DNA of 14,195 nucleotides from Candidatus Curtissbacteria bacterium RIFCSPLOWO2_01_FULL_38_11b. GTDB taxonomy: Bacteria > Patescibacteriota > Microgenomatia > Curtissbacterales > GWA2-41-24. Shown here in pieces: positions 5,635 to 8,996 of the stretch; the stretch's first letter is position 1, and the number at the start of each line of letters is the position of its first letter. A program made the translations under genes and the position numbers. The notes under the pieces are model-generated. The model had not been told where the DNA came from and searched no databases. It saw only the letters and a list, made by a program, of their open reading frames with translations. Where the stretch lies: the NCBI GenBank assembly GCA_001774995.1, contig MFBO01000003.1, positions 1 through 14,195 of the forward strand, read 5' to 3'.

Positions 5635-5832
5635 ATGGCAATTGATTGGACCAAAATATTTCAAAAGTATAAAGGTAAGTGGGTGGCATTAAAAGACGAT
5701 GAAAAGACTGTTGTTGCTAGTGGCAGCACTGCCAAAGAAGCTTGGGAAAGGGCACAAAGCAAAGGTTTTAAGAAACCAATTCTAACCCGTATGCCCACCA
5801 AACTCATTCCCTATGTTGGCTTCGGGGTATGA
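5635..5832 (+). CDS. DUF5678-like small protein, module copy 1
   Basis: The 65-residue protein fits the DUF5678 pattern as I recall it: a short helix, then KYKGKWVALKDDEKTVVASG (beta hairpin), then STAKEAWERAQSKGF (helix), ending in KPILTRMP. No signal peptide or membrane segment is visible, so it should be cytosolic. Its stop overlaps the start of the protease gene by 4 nt (ATGA), a strong sign of translational coupling. A diverged paralogue with the same neighbour lies at 8408-8620. Function is not known to me; adaptor, chaperone, inhibitor or substrate of the protease are all possible. The family name is from memory of motif shape, not a search. Confidence 0.75.
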   Translation: MAIDWTKIFQKYKGKWVALKDDEKTVVASGSTAKEAWERAQSKGFKKPILTRMPTKLIPYVGFGV

Positions 5833-6224
5833 AATTTCGCTATAAGAAATACAGCCCTCAAGTTCTGCGTCCAGTTATTCCAATCGAAGTTATCTATGAA
5901 AGTAAAGCTGTACCATATGAAGTTCTAGTTGATTCGGGCGCAGATTCTAACATTTTTGATGCTCAAATTGCTCAGATTTTAGGCTTAGATTTACTTCTAG
6001 GGAAGCACGCTGAAGTTTCTGGAATCACTGGAGTCGAAGAATCTATGTATATTCACAATCTCGATATATTGGTTGGTGGTCATTTATTTAAGAACGTGGA
6101 GGTTGGTTTTCTTAAACATATGGGGCGTCTTGGCTACGGTGTCGTTGGGCAAAAAGGCTTCTTTGATTTGTTCGTGGTGAAATTTGATTTGAAGAAAGAG
6201 GAGATCGAACTGAAACCTCGATAA
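5829..6224 (+). CDS. retropepsin-like aspartic protease, module copy 1
   Basis: At 131 residues this is the size of a retroviral-type aspartic protease monomer, which supplies one catalytic Asp and works as a homodimer. The active-site motif VDSGADSNIF contains D35 (DSGAD, 35-39). The second hallmark, a hydrophobic-hydrophobic-Gly strand before the C-terminus, is YGVVGQKGFF (103-112), followed by a closing beta strand. No signal peptide is seen. Translation is coupled to the DUF5678 gene through ATGA. The last 113 nt are overlapped in antisense by the small CxxC gene at 6112-6330. Proteolytic activity is likely by family; the substrate is unknown. Confidence 0.8.
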   Translation: MKFRYKKYSPQVLRPVIPIEVIYESKAVPYEVLVDSGADSNIFDAQIAQILGLDLLLGKHAEVSGITGVEESMYIHNLDILVGGHLFKNVEVGFLKHMGRLGYGVVGQKGFFDLFVVKFDLKKEEIELKPR

Positions 6225-6330
6225 TTTCTTCTTGGATTTCTCTTCTTAATTCTTGCTTCGCATTAGTGTTGTTTTTCTTCCACTTTTTATGAGGTTTGCA
6301 TAAACCACAAGCAGATCTTCTTTTGACCAT
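6112..6330 (-). CDS. small CxxCKPHK protein, C-terminus antisense to the protease gene
   Basis: This 72-residue frame begins MVKRRSACGLCKPHKKWKKN: a basic N-terminus with a C-x-x-C-K-P-H-K motif (C8, C11, H14), then a charged helix KQELRREIQEEI. From memory, short bacterial proteins of unknown function share this Cys/His/Lys-rich start. A perfect extended -10 box (TGTTATAAT) lies 6 nt before the ATG, placing the predicted transcript start exactly on the A of the ATG, which supports a real gene. The second half (from about residue 37) is antisense to the end of the retropepsin gene and looks less protein-like, so it may be a short family core with an unselected tail. It follows the antitoxin gene by 24 nt. 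Role unknown, perhaps nucleic-acid binding. Confidence 0.5.
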   Translation of the reverse strand: MVKRRSACGLCKPHKKWKKNNTNAKQELRREIQEEIIEVSVRSPLSSNQISPRTNQRSLFAQRHRSQDAPYV

Positions 6331-6336
6331 ATTGGA

Positions 6337-6345
6337 ATTATAACA
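6337..6345 (-). promoter_or_regulatory. extended -10 box of the small CxxC gene
   Basis: The minus strand reads TGTTATAAT, a perfect TGn-TATAAT. The hexamer ends 6 nt before the ATG at 6330, so position +1 would be the A of the ATG (fully leaderless). Confidence 0.55.
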
Positions 6346-6354
6346 GCAGATTGT

Positions 6355-6627
6355 TTACTTGAATTGAACTCGTAAGGAGATATCAAGTGCTTGAGCAAGC
6401 CTCTTAAGAAGAGATAGTGAAGGTGTAGTATTTGCACTTTCAACTCGAGATATTACCGATTGTTTTGTATTTAATTTATCTGCTAACTGCTTTTGAGTAA
6501 GTCCTTTTTCAATGCGGGCACGAATAATCGCACGAGCAATTTCGTATTCAAGGCGAGACTCTTCGTATGCTTTCCTAAATTTAGGATCTTTTAGTAATAT
6601 TTTTTTGTGCGTATCCCAATCCATCAT
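6355..6627 (-). CDS. XRE-family antitoxin (HigA-like)
   Basis: The 90-residue protein has an N-terminal helical part (WDTHKKILLKDPKFRKAYEE) and a Cro/C1-type helix-turn-helix at about 36-85 (RARIEKGLTQKQLADKL, then TKQSVISRVESANTTPS, then LLKRLAQALDI). It would neutralise the toxin encoded just upstream and repress transcription. Toxin first, antitoxin second is the HigBA order. It has its own promoter in the 43-nt gap after the toxin gene, with a perfect dyad between -35 and -10 (6646-6661). The first of two consecutive ATG codons is 9 nt from the -10 box, so the mRNA would be nearly leaderless. Confidence 0.88.
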   Translation of the reverse strand: MMDWDTHKKILLKDPKFRKAYEESRLEYEIARAIIRARIEKGLTQKQLADKLNTKQSVISRVESANTTPSLSLLKRLAQALDISLRVQFK

Positions 6628-6636
6628 ATTAAGCTT

Positions 6637-6664
6637 ATCATATCACAATATTGTAATATTGCAA
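6637..6664 (-). promoter_or_regulatory. antitoxin promoter with operator palindrome
   Basis: On the minus strand a -35-like TTGCAA (6664-6659), a 16-nt spacer and an extended -10 TGATATGAT (6645-6637) precede the antitoxin ATG. The spacer holds a perfect inverted repeat, CAATATT-GT-AATATTG (6646-6661), a natural operator for an XRE dimer and so for autorepression. This position gives separate control of the antitoxin from the toxin. Confidence 0.65.
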
Positions 6665-6670
6665 GTATTT

Positions 6671-7021
6671 TTATTGCCTTTCCCTAAAATCCCTAAGTCT
6701 TCTTTCTGCTGTTTTTATCTCCTTGCGATCGGTTTTTTGTTTTTTCTTTTGAAATCCATGTAGTAAGAGAAAATTTTTATCAACAATTGCTACATAAAAA
6801 ATTCTGATACTATCACTTCCTAGTATTCTCAATTCCCAAAGTTCTGACCCTGTTAACTTCTTAGCGTAAGGCAAACCTATTCTAGTACCAAATTCTTTTA
6901 GTAAGTCCAGAGTATCGGCTACTTTTAACCTTGTTTTAAGTTCTAGGGAACCGATGAAATTAAATACAGGAGATGCTCCTTGTACTGTTTCGTAATAAAC
7001 TAATTTCCACTTTGAATCCAT
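6671..7021 (-). CDS. RelE-superfamily toxin (HigB / phage Gp49-like)
   Basis: The 116-residue protein matches the phage-derived Gp49-like / HigB group of ribosome-associated mRNA interferases. The diagnostic C-terminal half is clear: LPYAKKLTGSELWELRI (50-66), then SIRIFYVAI, then LLHGFQKKKQKTDRKEIKTA, where the lysine-rich loop and RIFY strand form the RNA-cleaving surface in the family. It sits 43 nt upstream of the XRE antitoxin. The start is supported by an extended -10 box 6 nt before the ATG. It appears intact. The C-terminus is longer and more basic than some members (ending RRLRDFRERQ). Confidence 0.88.
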   Translation of the reverse strand: MDSKWKLVYYETVQGASPVFNFIGSLELKTRLKVADTLDLLKEFGTRIGLPYAKKLTGSELWELRILGSDSIRIFYVAIVDKNFLLLHGFQKKKQKTDRKEIKTAERRLRDFRERQ

Positions 7022-7059
7022 TCTGGCATTCTAACAGAAAATAGGTCAGAAAATGCCAG
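7022..7059 (-). promoter_or_regulatory. toxin promoter with flanking dyad
   Basis: The minus strand reads TGTTAGAAT (7036-7028), an extended -10 box whose hexamer ends 6 nt before the toxin ATG (leaderless prediction). It lies between the arms of an inverted repeat, CTGGCATT (7023-7030) and AATGCCAG (7052-7059), a possible operator different in sequence from the antitoxin dyad. Confidence 0.5.
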
Positions 7060-7062
7060 TCT

Positions 7063-7130
7063 CGAAACTTAACCCTTCGATTCGCTTCGCTCAGGGTGGA
7101 CTTCCCTATTTCGATTGGCCTGTAGTTTCG
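7063..7130. repeat. REP-like palindromic repeat
   Basis: The gap between the NUDIX and toxin genes holds a CCCTTCG...CGCTCAGGG core (7073-7096), the sequence type of widely dispersed REP-like palindromes, enclosed by CGAAACT (7063-7069) and AGTTTCG (7124-7130). No gene is seen in it. A role as transcription attenuator or mRNA end is possible but not shown. Confidence 0.45.
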
Positions 7131-7153
7131 TTTTCACACGTAGGATTTTTAGC

Positions 7154-8104
7154 TTAACTTGAAGATGCTACTCTGCCTAGTTTCTCAATCAAACGCTGTT
7201 CTATTATCTTACGCTGTTGTTCAGTTAATGAGGCATAGACATTCCCCCTGCGTTTTAAGCGATTGATAACAAAACTAAACCAATCTTCCCCAAATTTCTG
7301 GCGACCGTATAAGGCCAAAATTGCTGCTCCATCGGATACAAAAACTTTGGAAAATTCCAAGACTTTTTTTCTAACCTCATCAGGATCGCTTAATACAAAA
7401 ACGCTTGCCCCCTCTTCTAAGTGTTGATCCATTTGTTGCTCTTGGATTTGCTTCTTTGTTAGTCGTGTCTTCGCCAGAAACATCATATCTTCGACTTTAG
7501 TTTTCATATCCTTTGTAAAACCTAAGCATTGGATATCGTTAATAGTTTCTTGAGATATTCCAGACTCCTCCGAAACTTCTCTGGTTACGGTTTTAAAAGG
7601 GTCGACATTGCCATTTTCATCTACATCTTCGGGTTCGACCGAACCTCCAAAAGTACTGACCCAGGTAGGATATTGGAATACAGTTCGACTTCTTCTTAGT
7701 AGAACTAGATGATTATCTGCAGTCGCCAGTAAGGCTGAGATGCTGAAATTTCTTGGTACTAGCTCAGGGTTAGTGTCTTGTAATTCTGTTTCATAGGTTC
7801 CGACAAAATCTTTATACTTGCCTCTTCCGAGCTTAATATGTAATTTATCATCTTTCACCTGTACTTCAATAAGATTAATTTTTGGTCTGTCGACAAGTTG
7901 ACCACCTCTTGCTTCAACTTCATGTCGTCTTTTTTCCCAATTATCATCGATTCTTTTTTGAATCTCTTTTGGTCTTATAATCGTCTCGCTAGTATCCTGG
8001 ATAACAATTTTATCTCTGGGAAAAGTTCCCACAATTGGCAGTTTAAAAAATGGGGTTACAATTTCCTTATTTCTAGCAGGCTCACCTGACTCAGCTTCCG
8101 ACAT
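7154..8104 (-). CDS. NUDIX hydrolase-like protein, NUDT22/Nudix9-like layout
   Basis: The 316-residue protein has a NUDIX core with GGSVEPEDV at 153-161 and REVSEESGI at 175-183 (catalytic REUxEExGU half intact: R175, E176, E179, E180). The usual GX5E spacing is broken by an insertion (VDENGNVDPF), and the first Glu is not in its usual place. Upstream, LHIKLGRGKYKDFVGT (88-103) resembles the LGLTxYxxxxGT element of NUDT22/Nudix9-type UDP-sugar hydrolases. That would make a nucleotide-sugar substrate plausible next to two sugar clusters; this is inference. A -10-like TAGAAT lies 7 nt before the ATG. The N-terminal 20 residues are polar with no signal peptide. It is monocistronic, ahead of the toxin-antitoxin genes. 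Confidence 0.75.
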   Translation of the reverse strand: MSEAESGEPARNKEIVTPFFKLPIVGTFPRDKIVIQDTSETIIRPKEIQKRIDDNWEKRRHEVEARGGQLVDRPKINLIEVQVKDDKLHIKLGRGKYKDFVGTYETELQDTNPELVPRNFSISALLATADNHLVLLRRSRTVFQYPTWVSTFGGSVEPEDVDENGNVDPFKTVTREVSEESGISQETINDIQCLGFTKDMKTKVEDMMFLAKTRLTKKQIQEQQMDQHLEEGASVFVLSDPDEVRKKVLEFSKVFVSDGAAILALYGRQKFGEDWFSFVINRLKRRGNVYASLTEQQRKIIEQRLIEKLGRVASSS

Positions 8105-8111
8105 TAATGTT

Positions 8112-8117
8112 ATTCTA
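8112..8117 (-). promoter_or_regulatory. -10 box of the NUDIX gene
   Basis: TAGAAT on the minus strand ends 7 nt before the ATG at 8104, predicting a 1-nt leader. It is not preceded by TGn and no -35 is evident, so this is weaker than the other sites but matches their spacing. Confidence 0.4.
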
Positions 8118-8154
8118 TCTCATTTCAAGATCTGCAGTTTTATTTTTTCGGTAA

Positions 8155-8182
8155 TTGACAAAAAACTTGCATATGGTAGTAT
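8155..8182 (+). promoter_or_regulatory. near-consensus promoter of a structured RNA
   Basis: A perfect -35 TTGACA (8155-8160), a 16-nt spacer and an extended -10 TGGTAGTAT (8174-8182) point to the plus strand. This is the most complete sigma-70-type promoter in the window. Predicted start is G8189, exactly at the 5' arm of the hairpin described next. Confidence 0.65.
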
Positions 8183-8188
8183 TGGTTT

Positions 8189-8295
8189 GTCTTATCTCCA
8201 TAGTCCAAACAAAAAACCTTCGAGATTGGAAGTCACTCGCCTAAAGGCGAAGTTTACAATCGTGTAAGAGGGCTACTTTGGATTGATAAGAGAAC
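8189..8295 (+). ncRNA. candidate structured RNA in the intergenic region
   Basis: The 303-nt gap 8105-8407 has no gene but contains a foldable transcript. TCTTATC (8190-8196) pairs with GATAAGA (8285-8291). AGTCCAAA (8202-8209) pairs with TTTGGATT (8277-8284, one G-U). Together they make a 15-bp closing stem with one 5-nt bulge. Inside, GATTG (8224-8228) pairs with CAATC (8257-8261), and CGCC-TAAA-GGCG (8238-8249) forms an apical hairpin. The predicted transcription start from the consensus promoter coincides with the first stem. No classical terminator is seen, so it could be a free small RNA or a leader of the DUF5678 gene at 8408. It fits no RNA family I can name; it is not tRNA-like. Confidence 0.5.
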
Positions 8296-8389
8296 TTACT
8301 AATTGAGCTATTTTTGACCTGCAAAAACAAGCATAATTGGTGCTTTAATTATATGTTAGCTTTTGACGTTTGAATAGCCTTGCGATAAC

Positions 8390-8398
8390 TGCTAAAAT
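8390..8398 (+). promoter_or_regulatory. extended -10 box of the second DUF5678-protease module
   Basis: TGCTAAAAT (TGn plus a near-consensus hexamer) ends 9 nt before the ATG at 8408, predicting a leader of about 3 nt. A TTGACG at 8363-8368 is too far (24 nt) to be its -35. The module may thus have its own start independent of the upstream RNA. Confidence 0.5.
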
Positions 8399-8407
8399 GC
8401 CACTGAG

Positions 8408-8620
8408 ATGAAAATTTCTTACGCAAAACTACAAAAAAGATACAGTGGCATGTATGTGCTTACCGATAAACCAGGAGGCAAAGTTGTTGCCGCATCTCGT
8501 AATTTAGGCAAAGCTTTCAAAGAGGCCGAAAAGAAGGGCTACAAATTACCTGCTGTTCAATACATACAACCTGTTGGGACTGTCGCCATTTATGAAGTTC
8601 AAATATCCCTACGAGATTAG
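8408..8620 (+). CDS. DUF5678-like small protein, module copy 2
   Basis: The 70-residue protein aligns with the copy at 5635-5832 without gaps over most of its length: RYSGMYVLTDKPGGKVVAAS against KYKGKWVALKDDEKTVVASG, then A-x(3)-A-x(2)-KG-[YF]-K-x-P. Identity is low, so the duplication is old or the copies arrived separately. Its end overlaps the protease gene by 29 nt rather than by 4, having a short C-terminal extension (QISLRD) relative to copy 1. No signal peptide. Function unknown; the constant protease neighbour is the main clue. Confidence 0.68.
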   Translation: MKISYAKLQKRYSGMYVLTDKPGGKVVAASRNLGKAFKEAEKKGYKLPAVQYIQPVGTVAIYEVQISLRD

Positions 8621-8996
8621 CTCTTCACTTGAGTTTGGCAATATCCCCAATATTTCTTTTTGGCTGAATGTTGATACTTCTAGTGGACTGGTTCCATTCT
8701 TTTTTCTCTTTGATACGGGAGCAGACGTTAGTTCCCTGCCAGTTTCTGCAGCTCAAAAATTGGCTATTGATTTGGATCAATGTCCGCAGATTCCGATGAG
8801 TGGATATGAAGGCACTACTATTTCGGTTTACAAATCCAAAATAAAAATTAATTTTAACAAAAAACCTTTGACTATACCGTGTGTTTTCCATCCTAATGAT
8901 AATGTACCAATTCTTATGGGCAGAGCGGGGATTTTAGATAGATTTAACATTCTAATGGATGGTAAGAGCAAAGAAATAACTTTTGAAGAAATTTAA
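8592..8996 (+). CDS. retropepsin-like aspartic protease, module copy 2
   Basis: From the ATG at 8592 the product is 134 residues. The start was chosen because it gives MKFKYPYE, matching MKFRYKKY of copy 1; an in-frame TTG at 8574 is less likely. The catalytic motif is FDTGADVSSLP (D41 in DTGAD), and the second hallmark is ILMGRAGILDRF (107-118), followed by a closing strand KEITFEEI, as in retroviral-type proteases acting as dimers. It has a longer, more hydrophobic N-terminal part than copy 1 (VPFFFLFDTG). The gene overlaps the DUF5678 gene by 29 nt and is convergent with the glycosyltransferase gene at 9116. Confidence 0.8.
   Translation: MKFKYPYEISSSLEFGNIPNISFWLNVDTSSGLVPFFFLFDTGADVSSLPVSAAQKLAIDLDQCPQIPMSGYEGTTISVYKSKIKINFNKKPLTIPCVFHPNDNVPILMGRAGILDRFNILMDGKSKEITFEEI

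Follow-up and report, generated by a model that had tools for sequence, protein, structure and literature searches.

The stretch of DNA analysed here, called the window throughout, is 14,195 nucleotides long and makes up one entire contig (MFBO01000003.1, C3) of the 0.54-Mb, 78% complete draft genome of Candidatus Curtissbacteria bacterium RIFCSPLOWO2_01_FULL_38_11b. On its plus strand it carries, twice, a two-gene module in which a small protein of the Pfam family DUF5678 (PF18929) is followed by a retropepsin-like aspartic protease (PF13650, Asp_protease_2). For the first pair, the small protein of 65 amino acids (5635..5832) scored 42.2 bits (E-value 7e-11) against the curated Pfam cut-off of 23.2, and the protease of 131 amino acids (PR1, 5829..6224), with the motif D-S-G-A-D and a second motif containing V-G, scored 28.6 bits against a cut-off of 24.3; the two genes share four nucleotides (ATGA). 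For the second pair, the small protein of 70 amino acids (8408..8620) and the protease of 134 amino acids (PR2, 8592..8996, motif D-T-G-A-D) reached 25.5 and 26.6 bits against the same cut-offs, and the genes share 29 nucleotides when the protease starts at the ATG at 8592, an in-frame TTG at 8574 being an alternative start. Open reading frames and Pfam searches agree with a preliminary description of this locus on the coordinates, gene order, sizes, overlaps and protease motifs, and also on the strong divergence of the copies, whose identities are 23% between the small proteins and 26% between the proteases.

We found the pairing of the two families to be highly regular. Searched separately in 286 genomes of the same phylum, DUF5678 gave 43 matches in 30 genomes (at most five in one genome) and Asp_protease_2 gave 71 in 47. 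Judged from coordinates only, 31 of the 43 DUF5678 matches have a protease match on the same strand within 600 bases downstream; when the loci were read, with the loss categories assigned in that way and then recounted, an intact protease was present in 33 cases, a broken one in 3 (of which one belongs to the 31) and none in 7. With the protease as anchor, DUF5678 lies directly upstream of 44 of the 48 members of the subfamily (matches to our in-house profile A2 at E<=1e-10), where a rough estimate of chance would give about 0.01 such genes. This comparison with chance had been set beforehand, and it places the adjacency far above expectation: chance is excluded as its cause, and the two genes very probably work as one unit. 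The small proteins also belong to one family as had been proposed, since beyond the two window copies 29 of 30 diverged ones match Pfam DUF5678 at E<=0.1, the per-protein cut-off aside. No natural fusion of DUF5678 with the protease occurs among the open frames of the collected loci, and the reverse order, a protease upstream of a DUF5678 gene, was seen once (L180), with a downstream protease present there too. The four subfamily proteases without DUF5678 have a strongly hydrophobic N-terminal stretch (19-residue Kyte-Doolittle mean of 2.1-2.6, a mean above 1.6 being found in only 3 of 135 paired proteases), which resembles a membrane anchor. Such relatives with an anchor-like N-terminus and no DUF5678 (L057, L058, L063 and L151) form a separate branch of the family that is possibly autonomous; at L057 and L151 the next gene is alike, and from reading it by eye we take it to be TIG/IPT-like.

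Several of the counts given below refer to a set from which 18 duplicate loci were removed, and which holds 146 pairs plus 35 DUF5678 frames classed as unpaired. The 146 include the near-duplicate couples L077/L078 and L173/L177 and the probably misbinned L137, and two of the 35 frames counted as unpaired (L041, L164) do carry a protease. Eleven of the 146 proteases are shorter than 95 amino acids and were set aside, at least one of them (L079) for a contig end, leaving 135, among which is L036 with its in-frame stop. One contig, present as both L025 and L132, has a protease scrap recognised by eye, and was counted as broken among the 43 matches above and as having none among the 80 loci described further on.

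Of the paired proteases of at least 95 amino acids, 134 of 135 keep D-[ST]-G, and in an alignment of 126 pairs conservation reaches 100% for the catalytic Asp, 99% for its Gly, 100% for the Gly of the second motif and 95% for a further Gly, which by its position we take to lie in the flap. In the exception (L156:1070-1477) the active site reads D-S-E-A-A-G, and this protease is possibly inactive, its DUF5678 being retained. A protease profile compared with PDB matched the protease of feline immunodeficiency virus (E 9e-7), Ddi1 and the Rickettsia protease APRc (E 7e-4; PDB 5c9b/5c9d/5c9f), and the 50 Foldseek matches listed for the model of one pair (L088) are retroviral proteases, Ddi1 or APRc, all with probability 1.00. 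The protein is, judged from these comparisons, a single-domain retropepsin-like aspartic protease (MEROPS A2, clan AA), sharing its fold with APRc. We know of no small partner of APRc. DUF5678 has no relative in PDB by sequence (best E 0.57), and its core is modelled as helix-strand-strand-helix-strand. The idea that DUF5678 has the antitoxin fold of HicB is not supported, hhalign giving it a probability of 0.5% against a protein judged to be HicB by eye. Among variants of the protease, one form has at its C-terminus what by eye resembles a SEC-C zinc motif (CPCGSGKKY) and stands behind a distinct form of DUF5678 (L164, L204). Elsewhere in a genome of the candidate phyla radiation (CPR), a 437-residue frame (L067:1203-2516) combines an ATP-grasp-like part with a retropepsin motif behind it, again by eye, with the look of a RimK-RimB type fusion; many Asp_protease_2 matches in long frames (428-547 amino acids) may be of the same kind, L067 being the one that was read.

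An overlap of exactly four nucleotides between the DUF5678 and protease genes was found in 52 of the 135 pairs. Any overlap was found in 92 of 135 with the longest open frame, an overstated figure, as each start was placed at the first possible start codon, so that overlap lengths are upper bounds. The four-nucleotide overlap is an arrangement typical of translational coupling, and coupling is probable here; a Shine-Dalgarno-like motif precedes 17 of 56 overlapping protease starts versus 14% of random positions, a modest difference. The proposal in the preliminary description of a conserved unit with a protease of the retropepsin class is supported.

What did not survive is the view that the module had been duplicated in place. 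In a tree of 130 proteases (126 paired and 4 membrane-anchored; 140 columns, quick method, 54 of 126 inner branches open), the four paired proteases of this genome are spread over four separate groups: PR1 in a set of 53 rows and PR2 in one of 19 (Shimodaira-Hasegawa-like approximate likelihood ratio test, 96 and 95), the protease on contig C36 in a three-row set (support 96), and that on contig C37 among Levy- and Curtissbacteria with weaker support (85). The last two belong to two further DUF5678-protease pairs of the genome, which also has, on contig C14, a lone DUF5678 with an internal stop and a protease without a DUF5678 found nearby. The window comes from the CPR, and its nearest relative searched, G079, is of the same family; over the 20 kb compared the neighbourhood in G079 is syntenic with the window (RecO-like, DUF4012, sugar transferase, ManC-like and glycosyltransferase genes). 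Between the same two glycosyltransferases it carries the orthologous pair 1, with identities of 86% for DUF5678 and 72% for the protease, and in those 20 kb there was no match to PR2, to the toxin-antitoxin-like genes or to the NUDIX gene of the window, other genes standing there instead. The island (5.6-9.0 kb), which sits between two glycosyltransferase blocks that are both conserved in G079, is therefore a real variable insert. Local duplication is ruled out by the different tree groups and by the presence of pair 1 only in the syntenic locus, and for the same reasons the two pairs are separate lineages of one module. Between pair 1 and its orthologues the ratio of non-synonymous to synonymous substitution rates is 0.02 for DUF5678 and 0.14 for the protease, with silent sites near saturation, and by these values the pair 1 proteins are under purifying selection. 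Two adjacent DUF5678-protease modules, of which the one is canonical and the other a distant form, also occur at another locus (L046:550-2669), resembling the window.

Species genomes were also scanned with a close DUF5678 alignment, and among the best 80 of 87 loci a protease of at least 95 amino acids was found in 59, a broken one or a remnant in 9, a contig end in 3 and none in 9. Most of these 80 carry CPR names, three others being Candidatus Subteraquimicrobium, WOR-3 and 'Rhizobium', and several are called only 'bacterium'. For the Actinomycetota bin (L110), 13 of 198 genomes of its phylum have DUF5678, with 19 matches: a protease in 13, a broken DUF5678 beside a pair in 1 and none in 5. 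For the WOR-3 bin (L138), 18 of 100 genomes of its phylum have it, with 30 matches: an intact protease in 22, a truncated one in 2 and none in 6. For the 'Rhizobium' bin, whose phylum is Pseudomonadota-type, the only one of 299 genomes is G288 itself, and its contig (L137, bin Rhizobium sp. Q54), nested among CPR proteases, is probably misbinned. The Actinomycetota copies are likewise nested among CPR proteases in the tree (support 92, not starred). The cassette appears to have been transferred between phyla, and it would be mobile. Two 6.2-kb stretches one base apart were assigned to bins of Daviesbacteria and Levyibacteriota (L077, L078), pointing to misbinning or very recent transfer. At another locus (L059, G185:C10), frames that by eye resemble a zinc knuckle, a retropepsin and a reverse transcriptase indicate that a retroelement of eukaryotic origin has contaminated a bin of the CPR. 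A lone DUF5678 stands beside an opposite-strand FolD-like gene (by eye) in two genomes (L040, L049), perhaps a fixed protease-free use.

In a relative of pair 1 (L088) both genes lie in one frame with a single stop between them. A tandem model was built with this stop read as serine, its alignment adding ten natural in-frame pairs (11 rows). The model, of 195 residues, has a mean predicted local distance difference test score (pLDDT) of 87.4 and a predicted template modelling score (pTM) of 0.83, the DUF5678 part being mostly at about 95 with residues 59-65 as its low-confidence end. With the protease making up two thirds of the modelled chain, independent domains were estimated to give a pTM of about 0.6; the higher value suggests that the relative placement of the domains is predicted with confidence, and that DUF5678 and the protease share a defined interface, as a partnership of the two proteins had led one to expect. 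The partners also appear to be rarely exchanged, since their distance matrices correlate (Mantel r 0.82, the highest of 1000 shuffles being 0.22), a correlation for which linked inheritance alone would suffice. In mean-field direct coupling analysis of the 126 pairs, the top inter-protein scores exceeded those of shuffles, but shuffling breaks relatedness and the intra-protein signal was weak.

We hypothesise that the pair is a mobile two-gene proteolytic cassette in which DUF5678 restrains a potentially harmful retropepsin in an antitoxin-like manner or, in the mild form, chaperones it, a tentative reading to which we give a probability of about 0.42. DUF5678 would be translated first and ribosomes would then reinitiate immediately on the protease gene that overlaps it, so that production of the partner would precede that of the protease and keep pace with it. 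The protease would have to pair with itself, as a presumed homodimer, for activity; DUF5678 would bind it and restrain it (or fold and hold it) until a signal frees it, and the freed protease would cut a cellular target, the restraint, signal, target and any toxicity being what we infer from the comparisons above. One-sided loss is expected if a soluble protease does harm, or is of no use, when DUF5678 is missing, and this pattern fits: in the 286 genomes 10 of 43 DUF5678 lack an intact protease versus none of 43 soluble intact proteases lacking DUF5678 (Fisher p 0.001; 9 of 42 with a broken DUF5678, L003, set aside, p unchanged). The patchy spread, the multiple unrelated copies, the variable island and the asymmetric loss would all be in keeping with a cassette for addiction or defence. 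In a doubtful version of this idea, the pair would be a toxin-antitoxin or abortive-defence system of a new kind, with a toxin like the protease of human immunodeficiency virus (HIV) and DUF5678 as its antidote, transferred among CPR, WOR-3 and Actinomycetota-type bacteria.

Several points weigh against restraint by DUF5678. The loss asymmetry reaches only p 0.08 when the four membrane-anchored proteases are counted, and a chaperone or an activator predicts the identical pattern. No credible cassette was found on plasmids, phages or viral contigs in searches that reach close relatives only (57 plasmid records matched, with E of 0.08-0.8 among the 20 matches listed), unlike many addiction modules. 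The interface comes from one uncontrolled, shallow model with a one-residue linker, in which the protease is a monomer with its dimer face exposed. DUF5678 also occurs with no trace of a protease, in 7 of 43 matches in the phylum, 9 of the best 80 of 87 loci, and 5 of 19 and 6 of 30 matches in the Actinomycetota and WOR-3 phyla, and may therefore have another role.

A role of DUF5678 as an adaptor or activator, which would bring the substrate or complete the active protease and make the pair a regulatory proteolysis module like RimB with RimK, accords just as well with the pairing, the coupling and the modelled interface, and one source describes the rare characterised bacterial A2 proteases as having other protein factors involved in their activation or as working in cascades (PMC11957791). 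We nevertheless consider this rather unlikely, as a patchy occurrence and unrelated copies in a single genome do not resemble a core regulator, and DUF5678 is often retained where the protease is broken or gone. That retention argues more strongly against DUF5678 being a substrate, matured or destroyed by the protease for example at its hydrophobic C-terminal tail (P-x5-Y-[VI]-G): a dedicated substrate should vanish with its protease, yet DUF5678 persists alone, and proteases should sometimes survive without it, yet no soluble one did. The tail is moderately conserved (columns 61-63: Y 48%, V 44%, G 64%) and coincides with residues 59-65, where the confidence of the modelled DUF5678 is low, a stretch that however falls at the model's artificial junction, and a substrate role seems improbable.

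An anti-phage defence cassette, in which infection would release the protease and the host cell would be killed or stalled, would suit the position of the module, which shares a variable island with toxin-antitoxin-like genes. It would also suit the matches of the paired proteases to the PADLOC models PDC-M52B (28 of 31) and PDC-M08B (16 of 31, both at E<=0.1), which belong to candidate defence systems whose B protein resembles these proteases and one of which has a small A protein (PDC-M52A, 86 positions). PR1, however, scores 26.5 bits in PADLOC, no better than the 28.6 bits of the general Asp_protease_2 family, and when DUF5678 proteins were scanned 50 times (48 different ones), neither PDC-M52 nor PDC-M08 had a model among the matches listed, so that A and B were not matched together. 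PDC-M52A found nothing in the genome of the window, a result of little weight because that search matched nowhere, and in 398 genomes of the phylum of G288 it gave one weak match (E 0.004). A defence role is, on this balance, quite improbable. That the two genes co-travel as a selfish or neutral unit with no interaction could explain the correlated distances by joint transmission alone, and is the least credible account, considering that order and closeness hold over deep divergence and several phyla, that the catalytic residues are kept, and that the tandem model reaches its pTM of 0.83.

At E<=1 in Pfam, the window proteases matched Asp_protease families and one weak unrelated family. None of these is known to us as the family of RimB. 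In Pseudomonas, RimB is a retropepsin-like protease encoded with a working partner, as here, its partner being the ATP-grasp ligase RimK instead of a 65-residue DUF5678 protein (PMC11957791, in the text available). The RloA proteases of Pseudomonas aeruginosa are also retropepsin-like, one of them in a conserved operon, and are secreted with a signal peptide; their operon partners are RloB and RloC, and the accessible part of that account does not mention DUF5678 (PMC12239564). From the same two partial sources, the partners of RimB and RloA comprise an ATP-grasp ligase, a phosphodiesterase, an inactive transglutaminase and another ATP-grasp protein. The pSNCAPs COG3577 and COG5550 (TIGR02281, TIGR03698) are, like the window proteases, prokaryotic clan AA proteases, of about 120 residues, with no small partner mentioned in the portion of the source consulted (PMC2642776); the window proteases score 14.8 bits to TIGR02281 and 19.2 to TIGR03698, against cut-offs of 58 and 57. 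With type II toxin-antitoxin systems the pair shares two small, co-oriented, overlapping genes in fixed order, a patchy multi-copy spread and, by analogy, a first gene that would be the controlling partner. It differs in that the second gene encodes a protease. Among the Pfam matches of the window DUF5678 proteins no DNA-binding family passes its cut-off, SpoVT_C (E 0.05) being sub-threshold.

In the open-access papers searched, DUF5678 never appeared alongside 'aspartic protease', no joint account of retropepsins and toxin-antitoxin systems was found, and the sole mention of DUF5678 is unrelated by its title and the start of its abstract. On the strength of these searches the DUF5678-protease pair appears to be undescribed, and we would class the protease among the retropepsin-like enzymes and regard the pair as a putative partner-controlled bacterial protease, not as a toxin-antitoxin system. 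Few bacterial retropepsin-like proteases have been characterised, and the known cases involve partner proteins (PMC11957791, from the part available); with the present pairing a whole protease subfamily gains a dedicated partner, and DUF5678 a functional context. If DUF5678 were an inhibitor, it would be a natural protein regulator of a medically relevant class of enzymes, and if the pair were toxic, retropepsin proteolysis would become a further means of addiction or immunity in bacteria. As the pairs are small and easily expressed, the question can be put to a direct test.

Between the two pairs, on the minus strand and outside the module, lie three further genes. The toxin-antitoxin-like pair noted in the preliminary description is indeed present in the island, with a helix-turn-helix (Xre-type) antitoxin-like gene (6355..6627; PF01381, HTH_3, E 1e-15) and a RelE/ParE-like (Gp49) toxin-like gene (6671..7021; PF05973, E 2e-21), and a NUDIX-domain protein of 316 amino acids is encoded at 7154..8104 (PF00293, 28.4 bits, cut-off 21.1). 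Relatives of the toxin-antitoxin-like genes were found at only three of the searched loci, two of them near-identical, and their adjacency is weak evidence for the role of the pair. Genes that we take to be DUF4012-like recur near DUF5678-protease loci, in the window at 886-2715 and, by tblastn, at L002, L127 and L142.

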